The translations under genes were made by a program, and so were the position numbers. This document shows, one piece after another, positions 32,822 to 43,569 of a stretch of 64,000 nucleotides of DNA. Within the stretch, counting starts at the first letter, position 1; each line of letters starts with the position of its first letter. Location of the stretch: NCBI GenBank assembly GCA_017642885.1, contig JAEPOM010000014.1:1-64000 (forward strand), given 5' to 3'. Under the pieces are notes generated by a model. It was given only the letters and a program-made list of their open reading frames with translations. It made no database searches and had not been told where the DNA came from. The stretch is from Henriciella sp. (GTDB lineage Bacteria; Pseudomonadota; Alphaproteobacteria; Caulobacterales; Hyphomonadaceae).

Positions 32822-32836
32822 TGGCGGAGAGAGAGG
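32822..32836. repeat. attL, direct repeat of the tRNA-Ser 3' end
   Basis: TGGCGGAGAGAGAGG, identical over 15 bp to 43480-43494. It lies 3 nt after the TPR gene stop and 130 nt before the integrase start. Confidence 0.88.
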
Positions 32837-32966
32837 CAGATTTTCCGCCATACGGAGAGTTCCAATGGGTTACGGTGAGTAGACTAACGTATTATTTATA
32901 TTGACTTTTATGCTCCAGCGAGCATCGGTAAGGCCCACCTTATTCCAGTTGCTTCAGAGGGATAAA

Positions 32967-34220
32967 ATGGGGGATGGAAGTTCGAATTCCACAATGCGTG
33001 CGATGGGCAAACCCTTAAGCGCGGCATTCGTCAGAACCGTTTCTGAACCGGGTAAGTATCACGATCGTCAGAACACTGGGCTCATCCTTCAGGTAGATCG
33101 CAACAATCGAAAATATTGGAAGCAGCGTATCGTCATCAATGGTCGGCGCCGCGAGTTGGGCATCGGCAATGCAAACTTTGTTTCACTTGCAGATGCGAGG
33201 GAGAAGGCTTGGGAAACCAAGCGTTCCGTTGTAGCCGGGCGTGACCCATTCGCCGAAAAGCGAGCGTTAAAGGAGCGCATAACATTCGCTGAAGCCACCG
33301 AAAAAGCTCTCCTGAAACGTTTCAGAGAGCTGACCAATGAGAAGCACAAAAAGCAGTGGCAATCGACGTTGGAGCGCTATGCGTTTCCAGTCATAGGGGC
33401 GATGCGCGTATCTGACATTGAGACGCAACACATTTTGAAAGTGCTTTCTCCTATCTGGGAGCAGAAGACGGAAACGGCGACACGGCTGCGAGCTCGAATT
33501 GAAGTGGTTCTTAATTGGGCAACCGTTTCGCGTCACCGCAGCGGCGATAATCCGGCCCGATGGAAAGGCAATCTCTCAGAACTCTTGGCAAGCCCATCAA
33601 AGGTCGCCCAAAAGTCTAATCATCCCGCGGTGCAGATGCATGACCTCGGGCGTTGGTGGAGCGCACTCTCAGAGCGTGACGGCATGGCCGCAAAAGCACT
33701 TCAGTTTTTAGCCATGACGGCTGCCCGGTCCGGTGAAATTCGCGGCATGGTCTGGCAAGAAATCGATTTTGAGCGTGCGCTTTGGACTATCCCAGCTGAA
33801 CGCATGAAAGCAAATCGGGAACATCGCGTGCCCCTTTCAGAGCGTGCCGCGAAGCTGTTGAACTCGATGCCACGACTCGTAGGTTCCGACTTCGTGTTCT
33901 TCGCGCCGCAGGGTGGCGCATTGGCGGATATGTCGATATCCGCGGTCATGAAAAGGCTCCACAAATCGGACATCCGAGAGGGTGGGAAAGGGTTCCTAGA
34001 TCGGCGATCTGGCCGACCAGCGGTACCGCATGGTCTGAGGTCCAGCTTTCGAGATTGGGCAGCAGAGCAAGGCGTAGATCGGAACCTGGCCGAGATTTGT
34101 TTGGCACATAAAGTCGGCTCTGAAGTTGAGCGAGCATACCTCAGGTCAGACATGGTTGAACGACGCCGGGGGGTTATGCAGGATTGGCAGTCTTTCTTGT
34201 CGAACTCCCTCAAAAGCTAG
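32967..34220 (+). CDS. int: Tyrosine recombinase/integrase of the P4 type
   Basis: 417 residues from the ATG at 32967, which has AGAGGG 5 nt upstream; ATGs at 32994 and 33003 are alternatives. The N-terminus (LSAAFVRTVSEPGKYHD, then RNNRKYWKQRIVINGRRRELGIG) is the arm-binding DUF4102-like domain, followed by a core-binding SAM-like domain and the catalytic domain with Arg254 (ARSGE), His355/Arg358 (HGLRSSF) and Tyr391 (RAYLR). Such integrases usually target tRNA 3' ends, matching the att repeats. It sits at the end distal to the tRNA, pointing inward. Confidence 0.95.
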   Translation: MGDGSSNSTMRAMGKPLSAAFVRTVSEPGKYHDRQNTGLILQVDRNNRKYWKQRIVINGRRRELGIGNANFVSLADAREKAWETKRSVVAGRDPFAEKRALKERITFAEATEKALLKRFRELTNEKHKKQWQSTLERYAFPVIGAMRVSDIETQHILKVLSPIWEQKTETATRLRARIEVVLNWATVSRHRSGDNPARWKGNLSELLASPSKVAQKSNHPAVQMHDLGRWWSALSERDGMAAKALQFLAMTAARSGEIRGMVWQEIDFERALWTIPAERMKANREHRVPLSERAAKLLNSMPRLVGSDFVFFAPQGGALADMSISAVMKRLHKSDIREGGKGFLDRRSGRPAVPHGLRSSFRDWAAEQGVDRNLAEICLAHKVGSEVERAYLRSDMVERRRGVMQDWQSFLSNSLKS

Positions 34221-34344
34221 AATCAATTTCATCTGGCTGAAACGCACTGTGGTTCTCCGGCGCTTTTGGAGATTCACGGGTGACACTGCCCTAGTGGTTA
34301 GGTTGTTTATGAGTCGTCCCTCCTAAGAGAAGGGACCATAAAAA

Positions 34345-34542
34345 ATGACCAACAAGATTCTAAGACGCGAAGAAGTGCTAAACCGCACGGGCCTGTCCGT
34401 CTCGACGCTCTACTATTTCATGAAAGAGGGTCGCTTCCCGCAGCGCATCAAGCTCGGTGTCCGTTCAGTTGGATGGTTGGAGAAGGACATTGATGACTGG
34501 ATCAACTCCCGTCGCGGCAGTGCGGGGATCGATCATGCTTAG
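34345..34542 (+). CDS. alpA: AlpA-family helix-turn-helix regulator
   Basis: 65 residues. LRREEVLNRTGLSVSTLYYFMKEGRFPQ then GVRSVGWLEKDIDDWINSR is the AlpA/excisionase-like MerR-type DNA-binding pattern. AlpA proteins activate integrase or replication genes in P4-like and PICI satellites. Its 3' end overlaps the primase start by 8 nt. A short inverted repeat (GTCCCT at 34316, AGGGAC at 34331) lies over its ribosome site. Confidence 0.9.
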   Translation: MTNKILRREEVLNRTGLSVSTLYYFMKEGRFPQRIKLGVRSVGWLEKDIDDWINSRRGSAGIDHA

Positions 34543-35392
34543 GAGAAATGCCAAAGAACTAACGCATGAATTGAAGGGGCACTGGTACGGCTCCTACGGG
34601 GTCGCTTTTTGTCCCGCCCACAAGAATTCGAAGACTCCGGCACTAAGCATCGGTTGCGGTAAAAATGGAAAGCTGTTGTTGAATTGCAAAGCGGGTTGTT
34701 CATATGCGGACGTCAAACGCGCCTTGCTCGCTCTCGATATGTATCCCGATTCAGCGACTGTTTCGCCCGATGTACGCAAGAATAACGGGAAGTCTCGGAT
34801 CGCTCGTAGAATCTGGGAAGAGTCAGACACCGTTCTGGGAACCGCGGCAGAGCGGTATCTTCGTACTCGTGGTATTTCTTGTTCCATTCCAGATACACTC
34901 AGGTTCCACCCGAACTGTCGGCATTGCTCAGGAAAGCATTACCCCGCCCTCATTGCTCGTTTGGACGGAGGTTCAGATTTTGCGATACAGAGAACCTTCT
35001 TATCGAGGTGCGGGCAAGGCAAAGCGCGAGTAGTCACCAATCGAATGATGCTTGGTTCATGCGTTGGCGGAGCAGTTCACCTATCGAGGGGTGAAGGCGC
35101 GCTCGTGATTGCCGAAGGAATAGAAACGGGCTTATCGCTGAGGTCGGGACTTTTGCGAGATCCCATCGTTGTTTGGGCGGCATTGTCGACCTCGGGCATG
35201 AAGTCTCTCAGCCTGCCCTCTACTCCCAGAAAGCTCATCGTTGCGCCAGACGCTGACGATCCGGGAATGCGAGCGGCGAGAACACTTGCGGAAAAAGCTC
35301 ATCGCCTTGGATGGGCGGTCCAATGGTTCGAACCACCGGAAGGAAAAGACTGGAACGATGTCCTTTTAGAAAGGAACGAAAACGATGGCTGA
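34535..35392 (+). CDS. Primase with CHC2-type zinc finger and Toprim domain
   Basis: 285 residues from the ATG at 34535, overlapping alpA. The N-terminal zinc-binding pattern CPAH...CKAGC (about residues 28-60) is that of CHC2 primases. The Toprim half has ALVIAEGIETGLS with the catalytic Glu, and LIVAPDADDPG with the Asp-x-Asp metal pair. WNDVLLE at the end is common in mobile-element primases. It would make primers for island replication. It overlaps the next gene by 8 nt, so alpA, primase and DUF3987 form one coupled unit. Confidence 0.9.
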   Translation: MLRRNAKELTHELKGHWYGSYGVAFCPAHKNSKTPALSIGCGKNGKLLLNCKAGCSYADVKRALLALDMYPDSATVSPDVRKNNGKSRIARRIWEESDTVLGTAAERYLRTRGISCSIPDTLRFHPNCRHCSGKHYPALIARLDGGSDFAIQRTFLSRCGQGKARVVTNRMMLGSCVGGAVHLSRGEGALVIAEGIETGLSLRSGLLRDPIVVWAALSTSGMKSLSLPSTPRKLIVAPDADDPGMRAARTLAEKAHRLGWAVQWFEPPEGKDWNDVLLERNENDG

Positions 35393-36917
35393 TCAGGACC
35401 CTAAAGACTATGAACCGGAAGAATTTCAGCCGATACTGCTGGAAGTTGGTGATCGTCCAACGTTTCCCGTAAACGCGCTAGGCCCTCTCCGCCGGGCCGT
35501 AGAGTATATTCAAATCCGATCTAGCGCACCGATCGAAATCGCCGCCCAGTCGGTTCTCGCGGTAACCTCCTCAGTTGTTCAAGGATTCGCGGATGTAAAC
35601 AGAGAGCTTCTTGGTGGTGTGTCTCCGCTATCAAGTTACTTTATTACGATCGCTGAATCAGGAGAACGAAAATCTGCGTGTGACAGTCTAGCTAGAAAAC
35701 CGCTCGATGACTTTGAACGGCAATATCACAGGCTCTTCGCAGAGGCTCACAGGCAATGGAAAGTCCTGAGCTCAAGGTATGAGGCGGAATTCGAGCAGTA
35801 TCAACAGCTGCGCAAAATGGATAAAGGTCAACAGCTCGATCCCGGGGACGACGCGCCCATTGAACCCGTTCCGCCTTTAAGTCCCCAGCGATACAGCACG
35901 GAACCAACTATCGAAGGATTGATCAAACTGTTTGGGAAAAGTCATCCGGCGCATGCGATTCTATCAGATGAAGGCGGCCAATTCCTGGGTGGTTATTCTA
36001 TGAGTGCGGAGAAGGCAAAAAATACCATCGGGAACTTGAACAAAGCCTGGGACGGAGCTCCTCTCAAGCGAATCCGAGCCGGTGACGACAATCTAATGCT
36101 ATTTGGCAGGCGACTGTCGATGCATCTGATGGTCCAAAAAGGAGTTGCGATCGATTTGTTTGCAGATCCAAAAGCCAGGGACATGGGATTCTTGGCAAGG
36201 TGTCTCATGGTTGAGCCCGAAAGCCGAATTGGACTCCGTCCAGCATTGACCGAATTGCCGGATGATAGTGCGTATCAAGCGTTCTATCGCCGCATATTCG
36301 ATCTGCTTTGCTTGGATCTGGACTACCATAATGGCGAAGCACCGGAAGACGGACGGATATGTCCATACACCGGGGCTTTGAATTTGAATGCGTTGATATT
36401 GTCTCAACCAGCTGCGGAGGAGCTACGCGACTATTACAATAGGGTGGAACGCGAACAGCGCCGTGGCGGGGAGTTTGAGTTTATCAGGTCGTTCGCGTCA
36501 AAATCTCCAGAAATGGCTGCACGTCTGGCGGGTTTGTTGGCCATATACAGGAGCGAGGTCGAGACCAGAATCGACTTAGATGATATACGAAACGGAATTG
36601 AGCTTGCTAGATTCTACCTCCGCGAAGCGATGAGAGTTATGAGTCGCGCTCCGGCAGAGGCCATACATCGAGATGCGCAGAAACTAAGTGACAGGCTTTC
36701 GGATCCGAAAGCACCGATGGTTGAATTCACGCCTAGTCAAATCCAAAACGGGGGAACAAACGTCTTGAGGAACCGAGCTTACTTAAACGAAGTGTTGGGC
36801 GTACTCGAAGAATTTGAGCACATTAAGAGGTTGCCGCCTGGTACTGAAGTCGGGGGCGCAAAGAGAACCATCGCTTACCGCTTGCACCCTGATCTCTGTC
36901 CACCACAAAGCGACTAG
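35385..36917 (+). CDS. DUF3987 (YfjI-type) replication/helicase-like protein
   Basis: 510 residues. IAESGERKSACDSLA (about residue 87-101) is the DUF3987 version of a Walker A loop, and LSDEGGQFLGGYSM the Walker B-like region. HLMVQKGVAIDLF and GFLARCLMVEP are also family hallmarks. The C-terminal 80 residues may be a winged helix, as in Rep proteins (YLNEVLGVLEEFEHIKRL). DUF3987 proteins accompany primases in prophages and satellites. An inverted iteron-like repeat starts 4 nt after its stop. Confidence 0.85.
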   Translation: MADQDPKDYEPEEFQPILLEVGDRPTFPVNALGPLRRAVEYIQIRSSAPIEIAAQSVLAVTSSVVQGFADVNRELLGGVSPLSSYFITIAESGERKSACDSLARKPLDDFERQYHRLFAEAHRQWKVLSSRYEAEFEQYQQLRKMDKGQQLDPGDDAPIEPVPPLSPQRYSTEPTIEGLIKLFGKSHPAHAILSDEGGQFLGGYSMSAEKAKNTIGNLNKAWDGAPLKRIRAGDDNLMLFGRRLSMHLMVQKGVAIDLFADPKARDMGFLARCLMVEPESRIGLRPALTELPDDSAYQAFYRRIFDLLCLDLDYHNGEAPEDGRICPYTGALNLNALILSQPAAEELRDYYNRVEREQRRGGEFEFIRSFASKSPEMAARLAGLLAIYRSEVETRIDLDDIRNGIELARFYLREAMRVMSRAPAEAIHRDAQKLSDRLSDPKAPMVEFTPSQIQNGGTNVLRNRAYLNEVLGVLEEFEHIKRLPPGTEVGGAKRTIAYRLHPDLCPPQSD

Positions 36918-36920
36918 AGA

Positions 36921-36981
36921 TGCGATTCCTGCGATTTTGCGATTCTGTGGAGTTTGGAATCGCAGAATCGCAGGAATCGCA
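36921..36981. repeat. 24-bp inverted repeat built of TGCGATT iterons, candidate origin
   Basis: Left arm 36921-36944 and right arm 36958-36981 are complementary at 23 of 24 positions with a 13-nt spacer. Each arm contains three copies of TGCGATT at 8-9 bp spacing (the third in the right arm in inverted form). It lies immediately after the replication gene, where satellite origins are found, and could equally be a large terminator, though no T-tract follows. Confidence 0.7.
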
Positions 36982-37158
36982 AGTCCGATAATATTTAGTG
37001 CGGCTCCGATCATGATATCAACCTGCGCAGTTTGACCGTCTAAGCTCCAACGAAGAAGGGAGGGGTAGGTCCGTTCCTCAGAATCAAACACGCGGGGACC
37101 GGTGGAGGGACTTGCGCACGCATTTTTTTCAGATTCGAAAACTTTTTTGGAGGCATCA

Positions 37159-37605
37159 ATGAGCAAGCAGGCGCGCCGCCGACTTAATGCAGCTGATTCT
37201 CGCACCTCTGACACCGACCTGAAGGTGATCCAGACATTGGACGGACCGCCGAATGGGTTCGAGAAGAGGCGGTCGGAGATTTGGCTATATTTCGAGAGGC
37301 AAGTCAGTAAGGCGGGCGGGATCCAACAAAGTAAAAGCGTACCGCTTGAATTGCTCGTTGATGCATATGTTCAGTATGAAGAAACCAGCCGTATTCTGCG
37401 CGTAGAGGGTGTTTATTATACGACTTCGAGTTCCCATACCTCAGGGCTTAAACGAAAGCACCCTCTGGTCGACGTAAATAGCGCCCTACGGAAGCAGATA
37501 ATAGAATTATTGGAACGGCTTGGAATCTGCGCTCTTACGAATGCTTCGGCCGAAAATTCGGGTACGTCTGAAGTGGATGCGGCGGCTAAATACTTCTCCT
37601 GCTGA
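37159..37605 (+). CDS. terS: P27-family phage terminase small subunit
   Basis: 148 residues from the ATG at 37159 (TTTTTGGAGG upstream). A basic N-terminus is followed by EIWLYFERQV, then a helix ELLVDAYVQYEETSRILRVEG, then KRKHPLVDVNSALRKQIIELLERLGI, the P27 TerS pattern. TerS recognises pac/cos sites and hands DNA to TerL. No large terminase or head gene is nearby. Orphan TerS genes in PICIs redirect a helper phage's packaging to the island. Identification is by sequence pattern alone. Confidence 0.78.
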   Translation: MSKQARRRLNAADSRTSDTDLKVIQTLDGPPNGFEKRRSEIWLYFERQVSKAGGIQQSKSVPLELLVDAYVQYEETSRILRVEGVYYTTSSSHTSGLKRKHPLVDVNSALRKQIIELLERLGICALTNASAENSGTSEVDAAAKYFSC

Positions 37606-37738
37606 GTTGATACCGCCGACTAGTCACGACACTTGCACGCGCCTGTGATGAGCAGTGATTGGCACTTGTTCAATGGTGCTCATAGTTGGGGATCAAGCCG
37701 AAAACGGCTCGAAATACTCGACAACCAAGGAAATTCAT

Positions 37739-38185
37739 ATGTCTCGCTTCACTCACATCGCCGCTGCAATTGCGGTCAGCGTCACTGGCGTCAGCGTCTT
37801 CACTCCCTCAGCACTAGCTCAGAATGCAACCGGCTTGGAATCGGTTGAGCAGGAGTTATCATCTGGCTCGTTCATAAAAAAGAAGAAAAAACTAAAAGGC
37901 GCATGGGAAGTTGTGCGACGGGGCGACAAGATCTTCATCGTTTTTGGCGATGATTTTCGCGCGGCAAACGGGCCCGATCTCAAAATCTTCCTCTCACCCC
38001 AAACTGTATCGGAGGTGACCGGAAAGACGGCTATTAATGGATCCGTCAACATTGGTGAACTGAAGGCTACAAAAGGTAGCCAAGAGTATGAAGTGCCAGC
38101 CGGAATAAGTCTCTCCGATTACTCCAGCGTTCTCGTTCATTGCGAAGCCTACTCAGTACTTTGGGGCGGCGGTGACCTCAACTGA
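37739..38185 (+). CDS. Secreted DM13-domain protein
   Basis: 148 residues from the ATG at 37739 (AAGGA upstream). A signal peptide (FTHIAAAIAVSVTGVSVFTPSALAQ, ending about residue 26) is followed by a Lys-rich stretch (FIKKKKKLKG) and a DM13 domain: GAWEVVRRGDKIFIVFGDDFRAANGPDLKIFLSP to DYSSVLVHCEAYSVLWGGGDL, with the conserved Cys. DM13 domains are proposed to take part in redox or adhesion at the cell surface. It has its own terminator and is unrelated to satellite core functions. Confidence 0.85.
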   Translation: MSRFTHIAAAIAVSVTGVSVFTPSALAQNATGLESVEQELSSGSFIKKKKKLKGAWEVVRRGDKIFIVFGDDFRAANGPDLKIFLSPQTVSEVTGKTAINGSVNIGELKATKGSQEYEVPAGISLSDYSSVLVHCEAYSVLWGGGDLN

Positions 38186-38206
38186 TCCATAGTATGTGAA
38201 ATGAAG

Positions 38207-38236
38207 AACCGGCGCCGAGATGGGGCCGGTTTTTTT
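38207..38236 (+). terminator. Rho-independent terminator after the DM13 gene
   Basis: AACCGGC and GCCGGTT (38207-38213, 38225-38231) form a 7-bp stem with an 11-nt loop, followed by a run of seven T including the stem end. It sits 22 nt after the DM13 stop and ends at the tail of the convergent 140-residue gene. Confidence 0.88.
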
Positions 38237-38657
38237 ATCGCCCCGTGCGAAATGCCTTACGACCGAGATACTTGTTCTTTGCCGGTTTTGGTTGATCCGG
38301 CTGTTCGGCGAGATCGGAAGCCTCTAGCACGACATTGCCGGCCAAAACCTTGCGGACATGCGCCAAAGCGGAACTGCCTGTATTGACCTCGATTTCTGCC
38401 GCGGTCTTATCCAGCCGTCGGGCGAGAAGCTTTACGTGATAGGGCGTCAGACTATCCAGCGTTTTCTCAAACATGTCTTCGCCAAGCGTCTCTTTGAGCT
38501 TCAGCAGATCATCGCGCGTTAGGCCTGCCGCGACAATTTGTTTTCGAGCGAGTTTGATCGCTGCTCCAGAGAGATCAGAATCGTTGACGCGCGGGAAAAG
38601 GGACTCATGCGCCAGGATCGCTGAGAGCGCGGTGCGTCCGTCTGGAATGAGAGCCAT
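38235..38657 (-). CDS. Unknown 140-residue partner of the island ParA
   Basis: 140 residues, helical, with a basic C-terminus (KPAKNKYLGRKAFRTGR). The body has GLTRDDLLKLKETLGEDMFEKTLDSLTPYHVKLLARRLD, which might be a helical DNA- or ParA-binding domain, but I do not recognise a family. It starts 3 nt after the ParA stop, so the two form an operon and it could take the place of ParB. Codon use looks chromosomal (GC-rich) compared with the SIR2 block. Confidence 0.65.
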   Translation of the reverse strand: MALIPDGRTALSAILAHESLFPRVNDSDLSGAAIKLARKQIVAAGLTRDDLLKLKETLGEDMFEKTLDSLTPYHVKLLARRLDKTAAEIEVNTGSSALAHVRKVLAGNVVLEASDLAEQPDQPKPAKNKYLGRKAFRTGR

Positions 38658-38660
38658 GAT

Positions 38661-39569
38661 CTATGCTGCTGCCGGTTTTGATTGCGCCGCGAGTCGGGCT
38701 TGTACTTCCTGATATAGCATATTCACAGTCGCGAGCGCATCCCCTGGCCACTTCTGGGCCAGCGTTGGGTTCGCGCCTAGCTCGACAGGGTTTGCTGCGA
38801 AGTCGGATTTTTGCGGGATGACGGTCTGGAAGATGTCATATTCGCTCTCTGGATCGGCAGCACCCTCGCGCATGGCCTCGAGAACAATGCTCTGATGCGT
38901 TGACCCGTCGAACTTGGTCGGCAGCACGACCGGTCGGTTAGACAGGCCGCGTTTCTTGAGGCTTTCGATGATGTCCCCAGTAAACAAGTCAAGGCCAAGC
39001 GTCGACATGAAGTCAGGAATAGTAGGAACAATAATCAGATCGGATGCCGAGAGGGTTGCTTCAGTCATCGCCGATATACCCGGCGGGCAATCGCAGATCA
39101 CAATGTCATATTGTTTGCGAAGATCCGCCATGTCCTGACGCAGTCGAAGACCCACACGGCCTTCAATCGCCGTCATGGAATAACCCTGCTCGGTCAGGAT
39201 GTAGATCAGTTCTCGCTCCGCGCGCCTCAATCCGGGCGTCGCGGGAACCAGAGAAAGGTCCAGTGGTTTACCCATGAAGGTGACGTCGCTCGCGTGCGGG
39301 ACAACGAACTTGGTCATGTGTGCGAAACATTCGCCAAGGAAGTTTTCGCGCAAATAGTCGGAAACATTCGTGTAATTGTGGATCGCGTCATAGAGCCGCT
39401 CATCACCGTTTTCGCCATAGATGAGCAGAGAAGCATTGGCCTGGCTGTCTAGATCGACGACCAGCGTCTTATAGCCCTCCGCCGCGAAAGCCTCCGCCAG
39501 AGAAACCGTTGTTGTTGTCTTGCCGACGCCGCCTTTTGAATTAGCAACAGAAATCACACGCCCGAGCAT
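38661..39569 (-). CDS. Second ParA-family ATPase, island-borne
   Basis: 302 residues. Deviant Walker A KGGVGKTTT at residues 12-20, DLDSQANAS (A') at about 43, and the Walker B segment ICDCPPGISAMTEATL. It is distinct from the chromosomal ParA at 422: longer, with an insertion around YDAIHNYTNVSDYLRENFLGE. Island and plasmid ParAs segregate DNA or position complexes; a satellite that replicates could use one for maintenance. Its neighbour is a 140-residue unknown protein; no ParB is present. Confidence 0.88.
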   Translation of the reverse strand: MLGRVISVANSKGGVGKTTTTVSLAEAFAAEGYKTLVVDLDSQANASLLIYGENGDERLYDAIHNYTNVSDYLRENFLGECFAHMTKFVVPHASDVTFMGKPLDLSLVPATPGLRRAERELIYILTEQGYSMTAIEGRVGLRLRQDMADLRKQYDIVICDCPPGISAMTEATLSASDLIIVPTIPDFMSTLGLDLFTGDIIESLKKRGLSNRPVVLPTKFDGSTHQSIVLEAMREGAADPESEYDIFQTVIPQKSDFAANPVELGANPTLAQKWPGDALATVNMLYQEVQARLAAQSKPAAA

Positions 39570-40018
39570 TTAGCCTCCACTTTTATATCGCTGACTGTTG
39601 AATACTCGACCTGCAGCGCAGTTGCGCGAGCGACCAGAACACTCATCGTCCTTCAATTCGCCTGAAATTATTTAAGAAAGCGAAAACCCAATCGGCGCCT
39701 CGAGATTCTTCTACTCATTCTCGGTGTTGCGAAGGTGTGTTTTGGACCGGCCGGTACTTTCCGCGCTTCGTCGCGACCGAGCGGCGAACAAAAGCGGACA
39801 TTAGGAATAGCAACCTCAAATTTGTTGGAGCGAGGAGCTATTTGTTGATAATGTTCGCTTAGAGAGAAAGCGAAACTTCGGAAACGTGCGACGAACTTTT
39901 GGAAATTGTTTTCGCCGAATGCGAGCACAATGCGGATGGCTTCAACTCTCTAAGTGCGATCCGACTGCAGCCCCGCAGTAACCGCGAGTGAAATGCCTGC
40001 CCAGTTGATCTCAATCAG
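39570..40018. other. Intergenic stretch between ParA and the SIR2 block
   Basis: 449 nt without a supported gene. It should hold the promoter of the ParA operon (minus strand, right of 39569). A minus-strand frame 39668-39928 has no ribosome site or recognisable domain. The composition shifts here from GC-rich to lower GC toward the right. Confidence 0.55.
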
Positions 40019-40603
40019 TTACTCTGAGGGATAGTCGAACGTGTGTCCCCAGTTCCGGTCGCCCAGCGTAAAATCGCCCCAGAGTGCCCATTTAGACTGG
40101 TCGGGCGCCAAGGTTCCAAAAACCCAAAATTCTTTGACGGTGAGGTCCTTTGGAATCTTCAAGCAAGAAGGGTCAAAGGTAGTTTGTTGAGAGATGCTTA
40201 CTGCCACAACCAAGTCGCTACTATCTCCATAGCGCCTTAAACTTTGAAATACATCCTCAATTGATGCATGGGGGTTTAAGTCGTGGGGAGCAACTTCTTT
40301 GAGCTGAACTGGACAAAATTTCGTCGATTCGTCCTCCCGCCACATAGTAACGAAGTCATAATCTTGGTTCTCGCTGTGCGCGAACCAGATCTTCAATCCA
40401 ATCAGCGACGTCATTCCAACGCAAAACACCGCTGCGAGCCGCGTTTCATGCCAGGATTTTAGTCCATTGGTGCGAAGTCGACGTGCGAGGTCTGTAGTGT
40501 TTCGAGGCGGTAGCGAATACTCAATCTCGCGGAGTTTTTTCAGGACAACTTCAGGATCATGGTATGTGAGATTCGCGAGCTGTCTGAGGTTGATCAAATC
40601 CAT
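40019..40603 (-). CDS. Unknown 194-residue protein, possible PD-(D/Q)xK nuclease fold
   Basis: 194 residues from the ATG at 40603 (AGGA upstream), 9 nt after the SIR2 gene, so co-transcribed. A helical N-terminus (to about 65) is followed by a segment in which Glu53, Asp83 (QDYDFVTMW) and Gln100-x-Lys102 (FCPVQLKEV) fall in the order and spacing of Mrr-like PD-(D/E/Q)xK nucleases. This is a weak pattern match; no family is recognised. As the second gene of a SIR2 pair it might be the sensor, the partner or another effector. Confidence 0.6.
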   Translation of the reverse strand: MDLINLRQLANLTYHDPEVVLKKLREIEYSLPPRNTTDLARRLRTNGLKSWHETRLAAVFCVGMTSLIGLKIWFAHSENQDYDFVTMWREDESTKFCPVQLKEVAPHDLNPHASIEDVFQSLRRYGDSSDLVVAVSISQQTTFDPSCLKIPKDLTVKEFWVFGTLAPDQSKWALWGDFTLGDRNWGHTFDYPSE

Positions 40604-40612
40604 CTGCTCGTC

Positions 40613-41602
40613 CTACCCACGTAATGGATGAAAGAAGCGCATCAGTTTGCTGTACTCTGCATTGTTAGGGTCCACTATTTCATGGATGCTACGTCGCGAC
40701 GCACCAATCAAATTTCCCTCAAGGTAATTTTCGCCTCTTATGTCCCCGATTCCTGCACCCGGCGTTTCCGTCCAAGCATCAGCGCCTTCAGGACTAATGT
40801 TGAACAATTTAAGCCCGGAGGAAAACCCGTCCGAGATCGCTTGATTGATATGCGGGTCTCCGAAACCATATCCGATGGTCATCAATCGAGTCCCTGACGC
40901 GTTCAGGGCTTCACGAAACAACTCACCATACCAGTTTAAGAGCGGGTCTTGCGCGATAGCGCCCGCTTTTCGGCCACCGATTATCAGCACGTTCGTTTCG
41001 GCGTCGCTTCGCCGCCACAGAGAAGACCCGTGAAGCTTAATGATCGGCTGAACATTTTTCTCAATGTGCATAGGTGCGTCAGGATCGATCATCCAAGGTT
41101 CTGTGAGCCAACGTTGTGGTTCGAATTCGGCTAAGCTGTAAGGCGGACGAACGCATGGCCACTGAACTCCGTTCCAGCGATTCACTCCGTCCGGTAATGG
41201 AAAAACCGAGGAGGCGTATTGCCGTTCAAGCAAAATATCTTGGTTGAGGGTGTAGATTGCGTCAAATCTCGTAAGGAACTTGCGGACCAGTTGCCCAAAC
41301 TCAAACTCTTGAGCGACGAAAGCGGCATTCATTTCAGCAAACATTTGCATAACGCCTTGCTCGAGTGCCTCGAGCGATTGTTTGTCATCAGTCGTTGCTC
41401 CAGCCCGTGCTGATAGCCCCTGTAGTTCTGCCAATGCCCCCTCGAAGCCGCCCGAATGTTGGTACTTCCACAACAACTTATAAATGCCAGGTTGCTCTTG
41501 AATGCTCGGTAGTCCTATCAAATACTCGAAGACTTCGCTGGCGAGCCAGCCACCCCAATTTCTGCTGAAACCGGCGCCGAGAAGTAGTATTCGTTTTGTC
41601 AA
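40613..41602 (-). CDS. SIR2-family (NADase-like) defence protein
   Basis: 329 residues from a TTG at 41602 (GGAG upstream; the chain begins MTKRILLLGAGFSR directly at the nucleotide-binding loop). GAGFS at residues 9-13, Asn120 in TLNQD, His191 in IKLHGSS and GYGFGDPHI at 244-252 are SIR2 hallmarks; the Asn and His are those used for NAD cleavage in antiphage SIR2 proteins. No C-terminal effector or sensor domain is visible beyond the SIR2 core. With its 194-residue neighbour on a satellite-like island it is likely an abortive antiphage module (inference). Confidence 0.85.
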   Translation of the reverse strand: MTKRILLLGAGFSRNWGGWLASEVFEYLIGLPSIQEQPGIYKLLWKYQHSGGFEGALAELQGLSARAGATTDDKQSLEALEQGVMQMFAEMNAAFVAQEFEFGQLVRKFLTRFDAIYTLNQDILLERQYASSVFPLPDGVNRWNGVQWPCVRPPYSLAEFEPQRWLTEPWMIDPDAPMHIEKNVQPIIKLHGSSLWRRSDAETNVLIIGGRKAGAIAQDPLLNWYGELFREALNASGTRLMTIGYGFGDPHINQAISDGFSSGLKLFNISPEGADAWTETPGAGIGDIRGENYLEGNLIGASRRSIHEIVDPNNAEYSKLMRFFHPLRG

Positions 41603-41764
41603 AAGACGTGCTCCATGTTGCGAAGATTTTCAGGACGATGTCAGTGTTCTCAGGAACCTGGAGCCCCATCCGTTAACTCAACACTTTGGCAGAGCTGAGA
41701 CGAATACCAACCCAAAAAAGACAACCAGCGCTCGGGTTGATGGGGGACGCCTCGTCTATCAAAC

Positions 41765-42487
41765 TCACAACTCGGGGAGTATTACCGGGTTAGCGATAGG
41801 TCCATCGTTGGTAGCACCGTCAGGGAAACACACTTCAACGGCTCCGCCGCTTTGGCCATAAAGCGGAACCGATGCACCGCAATATACCTTGGTTCCGGAC
41901 TGTGGTTTGAGCTCATACCGCCAACAAGCTGGTAACAAAGACGGCAATGCGAACCTTCCGACTGCTGAGAACCCTGTTGGTGTAAAGAAAAGCTCTGACG
42001 ATGGCGCTGCGTAAGTGCCCTTGGCAATTTGCTGCCGCGTGAGTCGTCGACTATTTGGAAAGGACTCGAAGCGGTAGAACACTTCATTGGGCACACTGTT
42101 TAGGTGAAACGGCAAGTGTCCGTATATCGAATTCGGCGGGGCAGGTGGGGATCCAAGCTGAAATCGATTTGTCGCTCTCAACACGGCGAAAACGGAACGC
42201 GCTTGGCCTTCTTCGAGAGGATCAACATTTGACAACTTCGGTAGACCATCGATCCACTCATTTAGTCTTTGGACATACTCGTCTTGAACTCTTACGAATG
42301 ATTCGCGAGCACGAATTCTTAGCCTCTGAATTTGTTCGAAGGCTTCTTCGTTCATCTCGATAGCAATTCTCATGTTTGCGATCATCACAAGTCTTTCGCC
42401 CGAGAATGCTATGTGAACACCCATCGCGACTTCGGCGACGTCGACGAAGCGTTTCATTTCATCGTCATCCAACTTGTAGATCGTCAT
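41765..42487 (-). CDS. Unknown 240-residue protein upstream of the SIR2 gene
   Basis: 240 residues from the ATG at 42487, with GGGAGAGGG just upstream. The first third is helical (EAFEQIQRLRIRARESFVRVQDEYVQRL), the rest appears beta-rich with many aromatic and Pro/Gly residues (FHLNSVPNEVFYRFESFP, KVYCGASVPLYGQSGGAVEVCFP). It lies 162 nt upstream of the SIR2 gene on the same strand and may belong to the same defence block. No family recognised; no signal peptide. Confidence 0.65.
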   Translation of the reverse strand: MTIYKLDDDEMKRFVDVAEVAMGVHIAFSGERLVMIANMRIAIEMNEEAFEQIQRLRIRARESFVRVQDEYVQRLNEWIDGLPKLSNVDPLEEGQARSVFAVLRATNRFQLGSPPAPPNSIYGHLPFHLNSVPNEVFYRFESFPNSRRLTRQQIAKGTYAAPSSELFFTPTGFSAVGRFALPSLLPACWRYELKPQSGTKVYCGASVPLYGQSGGAVEVCFPDGATNDGPIANPVILPEL

Positions 42488-42606
42488 TACCCTCTCCCTA
42501 TACGAGATTATTGGAATTGTATTTCTCTCGACATAGTAACCCTATTTGTTTTATTTACGGCACGTTTGAACGCACTCATACAAGTTAGATCTCGACAGGC
42601 AGGGCT

Positions 42607-43077
42607 ATGAACTTTGATAATTGTCCCACTCTGCATAATCAGCCGGAATCAGGCGTCTTATTTTTTAAGATCATGATGAGGCTGGAGTACGCCTTGAAGG
42701 CGAAGAAGTTAGTGCAACCATTTGGAGAGGACTTTAAAGTTGATTGGGACAGGTTCGCGAACGAACGCCTCGGGTCCGGTTTTTTCGATTTTGTTGTCCA
42801 GTCTCAAGAAGCCGAAACGCTTATAAATGAATCCCCACTCAAGCAAATCTGGAATGGAGAAGCTTTAGAATTTCGACCGGTTGCGCCACCTGGAAACATC
42901 CAAGAATTAATCGGCGCGGTATGCCGAGTGCGGAATAATTTGTTTCATGGTGGAAAGGCTGGTCAGATCCAACACGGGCGAAATGAAGCGCTAATCTCGG
43001 AGGCAATAAACGTAGTACGATTGGCGCTTGAGCGAGATACAGAAATCAAAATGCTGTTTGAGACGGCGGCCGCATAG
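42607..43077 (+). CDS. HEPN-like protein
   Basis: 156 residues, mostly helical. CRVRNNLFHGGK near residues 106-117 has Arg109-x4-His114, the HEPN RNase motif, in the setting RNNLFHG seen in many HEPN proteins. HEPN domains act as ribonucleases in toxin-antitoxin and antiphage systems, often with a partner nucleotidyltransferase, which is absent here. It is divergent from the 240-residue gene. Whether it is active is unknown. Confidence 0.7.
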   Translation: MNFDNCPTLHNQPESGVLFFKIMMRLEYALKAKKLVQPFGEDFKVDWDRFANERLGSGFFDFVVQSQEAETLINESPLKQIWNGEALEFRPVAPPGNIQELIGAVCRVRNNLFHGGKAGQIQHGRNEALISEAINVVRLALERDTEIKMLFETAAA

Positions 43078-43479
43078 CTGAAGCGTAGATTGCATTGTAG
43101 CACGTGCGGGTCGACTCAAGATCGCGAGTTGGCATTATTCCAGACGCCTGTTTTTATGCAATCGGTGTTCTGTTGCGACCGCCCATGCGCCCCAGGTCTA
43201 AAGGAAGTCACTCTTGTCGATGGACCCAATTACGTACGCTCTTGAGGTCAATAGACTCCTACATTTTCGCTTTTGAACAAAGCGATAGCCACCGCCGCAG
43301 CAGGCAAAAAACCAACTTTGGGGTCAGATTAAGAATGCATGTTGGCGCAAAATGTCCGCTTTCGGCGTTCAGAAGGCGAAGGCAATGTAAGCGGCGCTCA
43401 CCTGAAGAGGGGTGAATTGGGGGATGAAAACCCCGCTTAATAAAAATATATCACAAAAACAATGGTTTATAGCTCACTT
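43078..43479. other. Right end of the island, no gene seen
   Basis: 402 nt between the HEPN-like gene and tRNA-Ser. Frames here are short and do not resemble proteins; the stretch before 43480 is AT-rich (AAAAATATATCACAAAA) and would hold integrase arm-type sites on the right side of the element. Confidence 0.55.
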
Positions 43480-43494
43480 TGGCGGAGAGAGAGG
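43480..43494. repeat. attR, within the 3' end of tRNA-Ser
   Basis: TGGCGGAGAGAGAGG, the complement of the last 15 nt of tRNA-Ser including CCA. It matches 32822-32836 exactly; one base further the two copies differ on each side. The tRNA remains complete because the repeat restores its end. Confidence 0.88.
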
Positions 43495-43569
43495 GATTCG
43501 AACCCTCGGAACGCTTGCGCGCTCAACGGTTTTCGAGACCGTCCCGTTCAGCCACTCCGGCACCTCTCC
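43480..43569 (-). tRNA. tRNA-Ser(CGA)
   Basis: 90 nt with encoded CCA and a long variable arm (GAGCGCGCAAGCGTTC), as in class II tRNA-Ser. The acceptor stem GGAGAGG pairs with CTCTCC-type sequence, the anticodon stem ACGGT/ACCGT holds the loop CTCGAAA, giving anticodon CGA. It is the insertion site of the island. Confidence 0.94.

Follow-up and report, generated by a model that had tools for sequence, protein, structure and literature searches.

A PICI-like candidate phage satellite with its own small terminase gene and an adjoining cos-like site in Henriciella

Introduction

Satellites that depend on phages are named, in the parts of the literature available here, from Firmicutes, enterobacteria, Pasteurellaceae, vibrios, Streptomyces and marine groups. 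We describe an island in the alphaproteobacterium Henriciella sp. (Caulobacterales, Hyphomonadaceae) that lies at positions 32822-43494 of the first 64,000 nucleotides of contig JAEPOM010000014.1 (assembly GCA_017642885.1), a stretch referred to below as the window. An earlier reading of this DNA, made without database searches and called here the sequence-only reading, had proposed a satellite resembling the phage-inducible chromosomal islands (PICIs). We consider it likely, from its genes, that the island is a PICI-like, cos-type phage satellite that encodes its own terminase small subunit (TerS), carries its own cohesive-end (cos) site and borrows the rest.

The Gram-negative PICIs of the EcCICFT073 type are the nearest described systems. 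According to the accessible text of two papers (PMC6092414, PMC6739421), they carry an integrase gene (int), alpA, a primase-replicase module and an origin of replication, and no structural or lytic genes, and this layout resembles that of the island. The same text reports that some of them carry terS and that EcCICFT073 is packaged via cos sites. In EcCICFT073, Rpp redirects the lambda-type TerS of the helper, whereas the island has an HK97/P27-type TerS of its own and an adjoining cos-like site. The island also differs in its DUF3987 replicase, its tRNA-Ser target, its Caulobacterales host and its size (10.7 kb as against 12-15 kb). A second group, the phage-inducible chromosomal minimalist islands (PICMIs) of Vibrionaceae, resembles the island in combining int, AlpA and a DUF3987-type primase in a small element without a capsid-remodelling gene, and packaging as multimers would suit both. 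As far as the sections of PMC10803314 at hand describe them, complete PICMIs occur only in Vibrio (68 of the 135 elements of a first search lay outside Vibrionaceae), they always sit at fis and average 6.7 kb, and their six-gene prototype has no annotated terS. The island sits at tRNA-Ser(CGA), and hence is no PICMI.

P4-like satellites are recognized by P4 alpha and by psu/delta/sid-type genes; none of these appeared in the Pfam and PHROGs output for the island, no dedicated search having been made. Capsid-forming PICIs (cfPICIs), which are satellites of tailed phages, have integrase, regulator and replication genes, as does the island, but they bring their own capsid module, whereas no capsid, portal, protease or large terminase subunit (TerL) was found in the island. 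They are mentioned in the accessible part of PMC11389934. Finally, the HK97-type cos phages (SfV, mEp235 and HK97), in the excerpts of PMC11331095 and PMC3851460 together with their genome records, resemble the island in having a P27-type TerS behind a G-rich box with a T-tract nearby; in contrast to these phages, neither terL nor genes for an HNH nuclease, a head or a tail were found in the island.

Results

A small terminase gene beside a candidate cos region

The core genes of the island run in the order int, AlpA, DUF7146 plus Toprim_3, DUF3987 and Terminase_4, all on the plus strand (Pfam, with PHROGs in agreement). Their reading frames are open, and the integrase, AlpA, Toprim_3 primase, DUF3987 and Terminase_4 matches exceed the Pfam curated cut-offs. 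The last gene, terS (37159-37605, plus strand), is of the P27/HK97 type and stands without terL; it matches PF05119 at 35.3 bits (cut-off 24.7) and PHROG 83, and its likely start, chosen by reading, is the ATG at 37159. The orphan P27-type terS of the sequence-only reading is therefore borne out by Pfam and PHROGs, with the NCBIfam P27 model below its cut-off. No structural genes were found among 13 element proteins (Pfam) or 11 (PHROGs), as had been expected, and the same scans of the island returned neither terL nor any gene for portal, capsid, tail or lysis.

The 241 bp between the replicase gene (rep) and terS contain two boxes, GGGAGGGGTAGGTC and GAAAACTTTTTT. The candidate cos region (37058-37152, plus strand) consists of GGGAGGGGTAGGTC at 37058-37071, a conserved GGGGACCGGTGGAGGGAC at 37094-37111 and GAAAACTTTTTT at 37137-37148, with a predicted cut at 37093|37094. 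The order, spacing and place of the boxes match the region upstream of terS in real phages. In the window, GGGAGGGGTAGGTC is followed by 65 nt, GAAAACTTTTTT and then terS; in the E. coli phage vB_EcoS-640R1, which has a terS-terL-portal-capsid order, GGGAGGGGCAGGTC is followed by 64 nt, GAAAACTTTTTT and then terS. A search of viral contigs for both boxes, the gap being left free within 60-80 nt, gave 17 matches, 16 of which have terS and terL downstream. The gap was 68 nt in 16 of these contigs and 63 nt in one, compared with 69 nt in the window and 68 nt in a related island (G026, described below). A relaxed two-box motif occurs once in the element and in none of 3000 simulated elements.

The position of the cut was predicted from the end of the SfV genome record. 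BLAST of the box region of the E. coli phage against phages found matches in 49 records, several of them near record ends (SfV, SfI, SfIV, mEp235 and Fraca). The SfV record ends 22 nt past its G-rich box, after the HNH gene, and its terS begins at base 68. SfI, SfII, SfIV and SfV have one common cos site according to the available text of PMC3851460, and that of PMC11331095 describes HK97 TerS as binding 15-29 bp behind the cut, with G21 beside an A-tract and an overhang of 10 nt. By manual count, SfV has a G at position 21 followed by seven T, which agrees with the HK97 layout and for that reason suggests, by analogy, that SfV is truly cut where its record ends. Applying the 22-nt spacing of SfV to the window gives 37093|37094, at the first base of the conserved 18-mer. 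This cut is uncertain, as it is carried over from a spacing measured to the end of a record, and because the T-tracts of the window lie further off.

BLAST of the cos block of the window against phages gave short matches, with no place covering 80% of the block; the phage matches listed cover 16-24% and belong mostly to unrelated large phages. Two further candidates were set aside. GGGGACCGGNGGAGGGAC had two matches in viral contigs, beside or inside head-like frames (by eye) with no terS seen, and these were attributed to chance. The pattern GGGAGGGGTA-N-GAAAACTTTT also had two, in which the gap was 60 nt and inspection by eye showed no frame resembling TerS, and was rejected.

A second island in the genus

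Two of 105 genomes of the family have P27 terS matches, the host and G026, which belongs to the same genus. The TGA flagged in the G026 gene is the stop codon at its end; inside the Pfam match there is none. The G026 island lies in tRNA-Ser(GGA) and is bounded by a 14-bp attachment (att) core at both ends, ~20.6 kb apart, with one copy at the tRNA-Ser(GGA) end; its left end aligns to the att core of the window as TGGCGGTGAGACAGG. Identity to the window is 74% for the integrase, 63% for AlpA and 26% for TerS, and both TerS proteins have AAKYF at or near the C-terminus. Between the two islands, int and alpA have changed at 60-63% of third codon positions as against 13-20% of second positions, a pattern that resembles change under purifying selection.

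The remainder of the G026 island is different. Its replicase is of the DUF927 family, as against DUF3987 in the window, and its cargo comprises very large proteins that look surface-like by eye, along with Hypoth_Ymh and a weak TetR-like match. The intergenic regions between rep and terS nevertheless align over 142 columns at 70% identity (E 6e-19, two-sequence comparison), so that this block is kept although the replicase families differ. Its best-conserved part is the 18-mer GGGGACCGGNGGAGGGAC, which is identical in the two islands, and the predicted cut adjoins the first base of this 18-mer. With one mismatch allowed, the 18-mer occurs in two of the 105 family genomes, once in each of these islands.

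Phage genes in the host genome

The host genome was searched for HK97-type TerL and capsid families, along with others to make 31 genomes. PF03354 (TerL) matches one of the 31 and PF05065 (capsid) matches 23, whose capsids we infer to be genes of gene transfer agents (GTAs). The host has no match to either family, and therefore shows no sign of an HK97-type prophage or of a GTA capsid.

Boundaries and empty sites

The 15-bp repeat TGGCGGAGAGAGAGG lies at 32822-32836 (integrase end) and 43480-43494 (tRNA end), both read on the plus strand, and encloses a unit of 10,658 bp. The window has two matches at up to two mismatches, compared with 0.19 expected from shuffles, and the 3.66-Mb host genome has two exact copies and none with one mismatch. 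The target, the tRNA-Ser(CGA) gene, spans 43480-43569 on the minus strand, so that the right copy forms its 3' end; this gene is left intact. The sequence-only reading had taken the repeat to bracket the island and allowed that it might recur by chance; the two copies are where it placed them, and the genome holds no further copy at up to one mismatch. GC content per kb is ~47-55% within the island and ~51-62% outside. A 24-nt direct repeat (D3) stands just inside both ends, at 32956-32979 and 43406-43429 (plus strand, 83% identical), and may be an integrase arm-type site.

The tetratricopeptide repeat (TPR) gene to the left of the island was matched in 47 of 61 relatives searched, nine of the matches being near full length, including that of the window itself. 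In two sister species, G016 and G028, the TPR gene directly precedes a single GGCGGAGAGAGAGG, followed by tRNA-Ser and rplU, and the site is therefore empty. The left and right flanks overlap there by exactly the 15-bp repeat, which places the junction at the integrase-end copy in the window. Empty sites in sister genomes had been suggested as a check, and these two, joined precisely at the repeat, support the view that the island is mobile. In G008, G003 and G015, the DNA between the TPR gene and tRNA-Ser has no obvious integrase when its frames are judged by eye, and these loci are absent among the 60 integrase matches listed.

Integration and replication genes

The tyrosine integrase gene (32967-34220, likely ATG at 32967) encodes Arm-DNA-bind_3, Phage_int_M and Phage_integrase domains (Pfam). 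It is followed by genes for an AlpA-family regulator or excisionase (34345-34542; PF05930, 72.8 bits), a primase with DUF7146 and Toprim_3 (34535-35392; scanned in Pfam from 34532) and the DUF3987 replicative helicase/primase, rep (35385-36917; PF13148, 261.6 bits; PHROG 2373, DNA helicase), all on the plus strand. The sequence-only reading had named each of these genes correctly. It had also proposed an origin, and a candidate is present directly behind rep: an inverted array of GCGATTC-type iterons at 36921-36981, with 25-nt arms that are 96% complementary and a hairpin z of -10.5.

Repeats of this kind are common in the same place in relatives. A 7-mer occurs at least four times in the 400 nt behind rep in 66 of 116 loci with a related rep, as against 12 of 107 stretches further downstream and 22 of 121 inside rep. 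A perfect inverted repeat of at least 11 bp occurs behind rep in 43 of the 116, as against 8 of 107 and 4 of 121 in these controls. The counts exclude locus ids L053-L064 (12; duplicates or other sources) and stretches shorter than 400 nt, and they indicate that such repeats are frequent behind the DUF3987-type replicase. Short tandem or inverted repeats of the TGCTAAT, TGCGACA, TGCTACA and TCCTACA types were seen in the 400 nt behind rep in many loci. They likely represent a shared origin type.

Related islands in other Alphaproteobacteria

Peptide patterns taken from the rep and terS of the window found no viral relative. Once eight reps had been aligned, the resulting profile detected relatives both in genomes (80 of 137 loci kept) and in viral contigs (40 loci). 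Some of the islands with a related rep are ~7-15 kb long, with a copied tRNA 3' end at one border, the tRNA at the other and int in between; ten, including that of the window and omitting a duplicate (L056), are inserted at tRNA-Ser, have a core of 14-15 bp and carry a related integrase. Our own TerS hidden Markov model (HMM) finds a P27 terS in 6 of the 80 loci from genomes and in 11 of the 40 from viral contigs. A related rep is present in nine further genomes of the order, and among them a PF05119 match occurs only in G338, on a separate contig. Homologues of the primase-rep pair also occur in viral contigs that carry terL, portal and capsid genes (for example L149, L156 and L166).

The sequence-only reading had thought a satellite of this kind new in the lineage. 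Its novelty is narrowed by these tRNA islands with int, primase and DUF3987 in other Alphaproteobacteria; the new part of the finding is the TerS-cos pair. A literature search met no PICI in Alphaproteobacteria in the listed titles and starts of abstracts, which does not show absence from print.

Several neighbouring types of element were noticed. Five tRNA-bounded islands of 8-10 kb in Rhodobacteraceae-type genomes (L091, L097, L108, L119 and L130) carry rep and an HK97-type capsid gene and then a P27 terS, with no terL or portal match by HMM; Pfam confirms the capsids of L097 and L119. These five are possibly minimal capsid-carrying satellites. Locus L251 (G012:C6:3011500-3031400), in a further sister species, has near its position 2655 the same 15-bp core as the island, beside an integrase 48% identical, and behind this come a helicase, TerL, HNH, a partial capsid match and protease- and portal-like frames (by eye). 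The stretch contains neither another att copy nor a tRNA, and the element is therefore truncated. It may be a cfPICI remnant and looks more cfPICI-like than the island. Behind rep, two loci encode a tape-measure-like protein (L076, 13933-16239, PhageMin_Tail in Pfam; L094, 13686-15704, by eye only) and two others a DUF5681 protein (L090, 12419-12904; L102, 11726-12160), the latter at a position that terS occupies in other islands.

Cargo in the right half

Seven proteins are encoded between terS and the tRNA. They are a DM13-domain protein (37739-38185, plus strand; PF10517); a 140-aa neighbour of ParA (38235-38657, minus), whose sole Pfam match is below cut-off and which has none in NCBIfam or PHROGs; a ParA-family ATPase (38661-39569, minus; PF13614, 119 bits); a 194-aa protein (40019-40603, minus) and a 240-aa protein (41765-42487, minus), both without a family in Pfam, PHROGs, PADLOC and NCBIfam; a SIR2-like protein (40613-41602, minus; PF13289, 27.5 bits, cut-off 24.5); and a 156-aa protein (42607-43077, plus) that matches PHROG 19013, of unknown function, and no Pfam family. 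The RNNLFHG motif of the last resembles those of HEPN nucleases, a likeness that no search backs. The pairing of the ParA-type ATPase with its 140-aa neighbour (38235-39569) occurs here in an island of satellite size. The right half had been read earlier as cargo that would protect the host. It is cargo, but the protective role does not carry over to it as a whole: SIR2 is the only protein that resembles defence, and its matches are weak and partial (best PADLOC SIR2 match E 5.3e-11).

Discussion

The reading of the island as a phage satellite is strengthened by the cos-like site adjoining terS, the sister island in G026 and a host without PF05065 or PF03354. Together with the empty sites, these features favour the interpretation that the sequence-only reading had offered. 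The island has several features of PICIs, namely an integrase with a repeat-flanked att site, a predicted AlpA-type regulator (Gram-negative PICIs have a master regulator of the AlpA or MerR type), a replication module with a candidate origin, and no structural or lytic gene among the proteins scanned. PICIs measure ~12-15 kb, as against 10,658 bp for the island and ~20.6 kb for that of G026. PICIs are also marked by att sites that prophages never use; the att core of the island is shared with the truncated TerL/HNH element of G012, itself possibly a cfPICI. Formal PICI membership is not claimed.

A life cycle can be proposed on this basis. A helper phage would induce the island, AlpA and Int would excise it, and the primase and DUF3987 helicase would produce concatemers by replication that starts at the palindrome. 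The HK97-type TerS of the island would bind the cos block just upstream of terS and recruit the TerL of the helper (and probably an HNH nuclease too), so that the DNA is cut near 37093|37094 and loaded into helper capsids; in a new cell, the packaged DNA would recircularize and then integrate. Multimers in full-size heads (for example 4 x 10.66 = 42.6 kb) would be the likeliest packaged form, because no capsid-resizing gene was recognized.

A number of observations weigh against this reading. The terS assignment falls below the cut-off of the NCBIfam P27 model (26.1 bits, cut-off 45.6), and a TerS structural model (predicted local distance difference test score 72) gave no significant structural match: the top Foldseek hit is the HK97 small terminase at E 0.32, and phmmer against solved structures found none. 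Among genome loci with a related rep, 74 of 80 have no P27 terS match, and the primase-rep pair is not exclusive to PICIs, given its homologues on viral contigs that also encode terL, portal and capsid. No satellite function was recognized in any of the seven cargo proteins, nor any Rpp-like or capsid-resizing gene in the island. The 17 viral contigs with both boxes represent about three lineages, since 15 are near-identical, and one (L221) has the boxes and no terS or terL match. Klebsiella BLAST matches are internal to their records, and the mEp235 record begins at its terS, so that its end is uninformative on the cut. SfV has no GAAAACTTTTTT box and a different T-tract, so that the transfer of the predicted cut depends on a single box. 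Of 398 genomes of the order, a set that does not include G026, the host (G000) is the only one with the exact two-box motif; no resident phage with the same motif was thus found, which counts against an easy helper.

The same genes could be the remains of a prophage that lost its late genes and kept int, alpA, replication genes, cos and terS by inertia. terS is after all a phage gene, viral contigs with late genes carry the primase-rep pair too, and the same 15-bp core is found in the truncated element of G012, which has TerL, HNH and a partial capsid match. We nevertheless regard decay as unlikely, given that the core reading frames are open, that int and alpA appear to change under purifying selection and that G026 repeats the order int-alpA-rep-repeats-cos-terS with another replicase, other cargo and both att copies. 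Also against it, islands of 7-15 kb that are bounded by tRNA sequences and carry int and a related rep recur in other Alphaproteobacteria. Somewhat less probable still is an integrative element or defence island with an incidental terS, moved by conjugative mobilization, transformation, or general or GTA transduction. The ParA-type ATPase and SIR2-like cargo would fit such an element, as would the many related-rep loci without terS. However, no relaxase was found among the proteins scanned (Pfam, PHROGs and NCBIfam), the host lacks the PF05065 capsid present in 23 of the 31 genomes, which argues against a resident GTA of that type, and a non-coding block common to phages is kept beside terS.

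On the satellite reading, the island probably spreads inside the particles of another phage, to judge by its genes. The comparison with G026 suggests that terS and cos form a module kept in place while replicase and cargo swap. More tentatively, and with rather less confidence than in the satellite reading itself, there may be a Caulobacterales satellite lineage built on a self-contained cassette of an HK97-type TerS and its adjoining cognate cos, with interchangeable replicases (DUF3987 or DUF927) and cargo. Such a lineage would retarget the TerL of its helper by replacing TerS, rather than through Rpp or capsid resizing, and could therefore use unrelated helpers with a compatible TerL. If the satellite reading is true, Alphaproteobacteria have satellites of their own whose packaging signal can be recognized in the sequence, and the TerS-cos pair would be a handle for finding further satellites.

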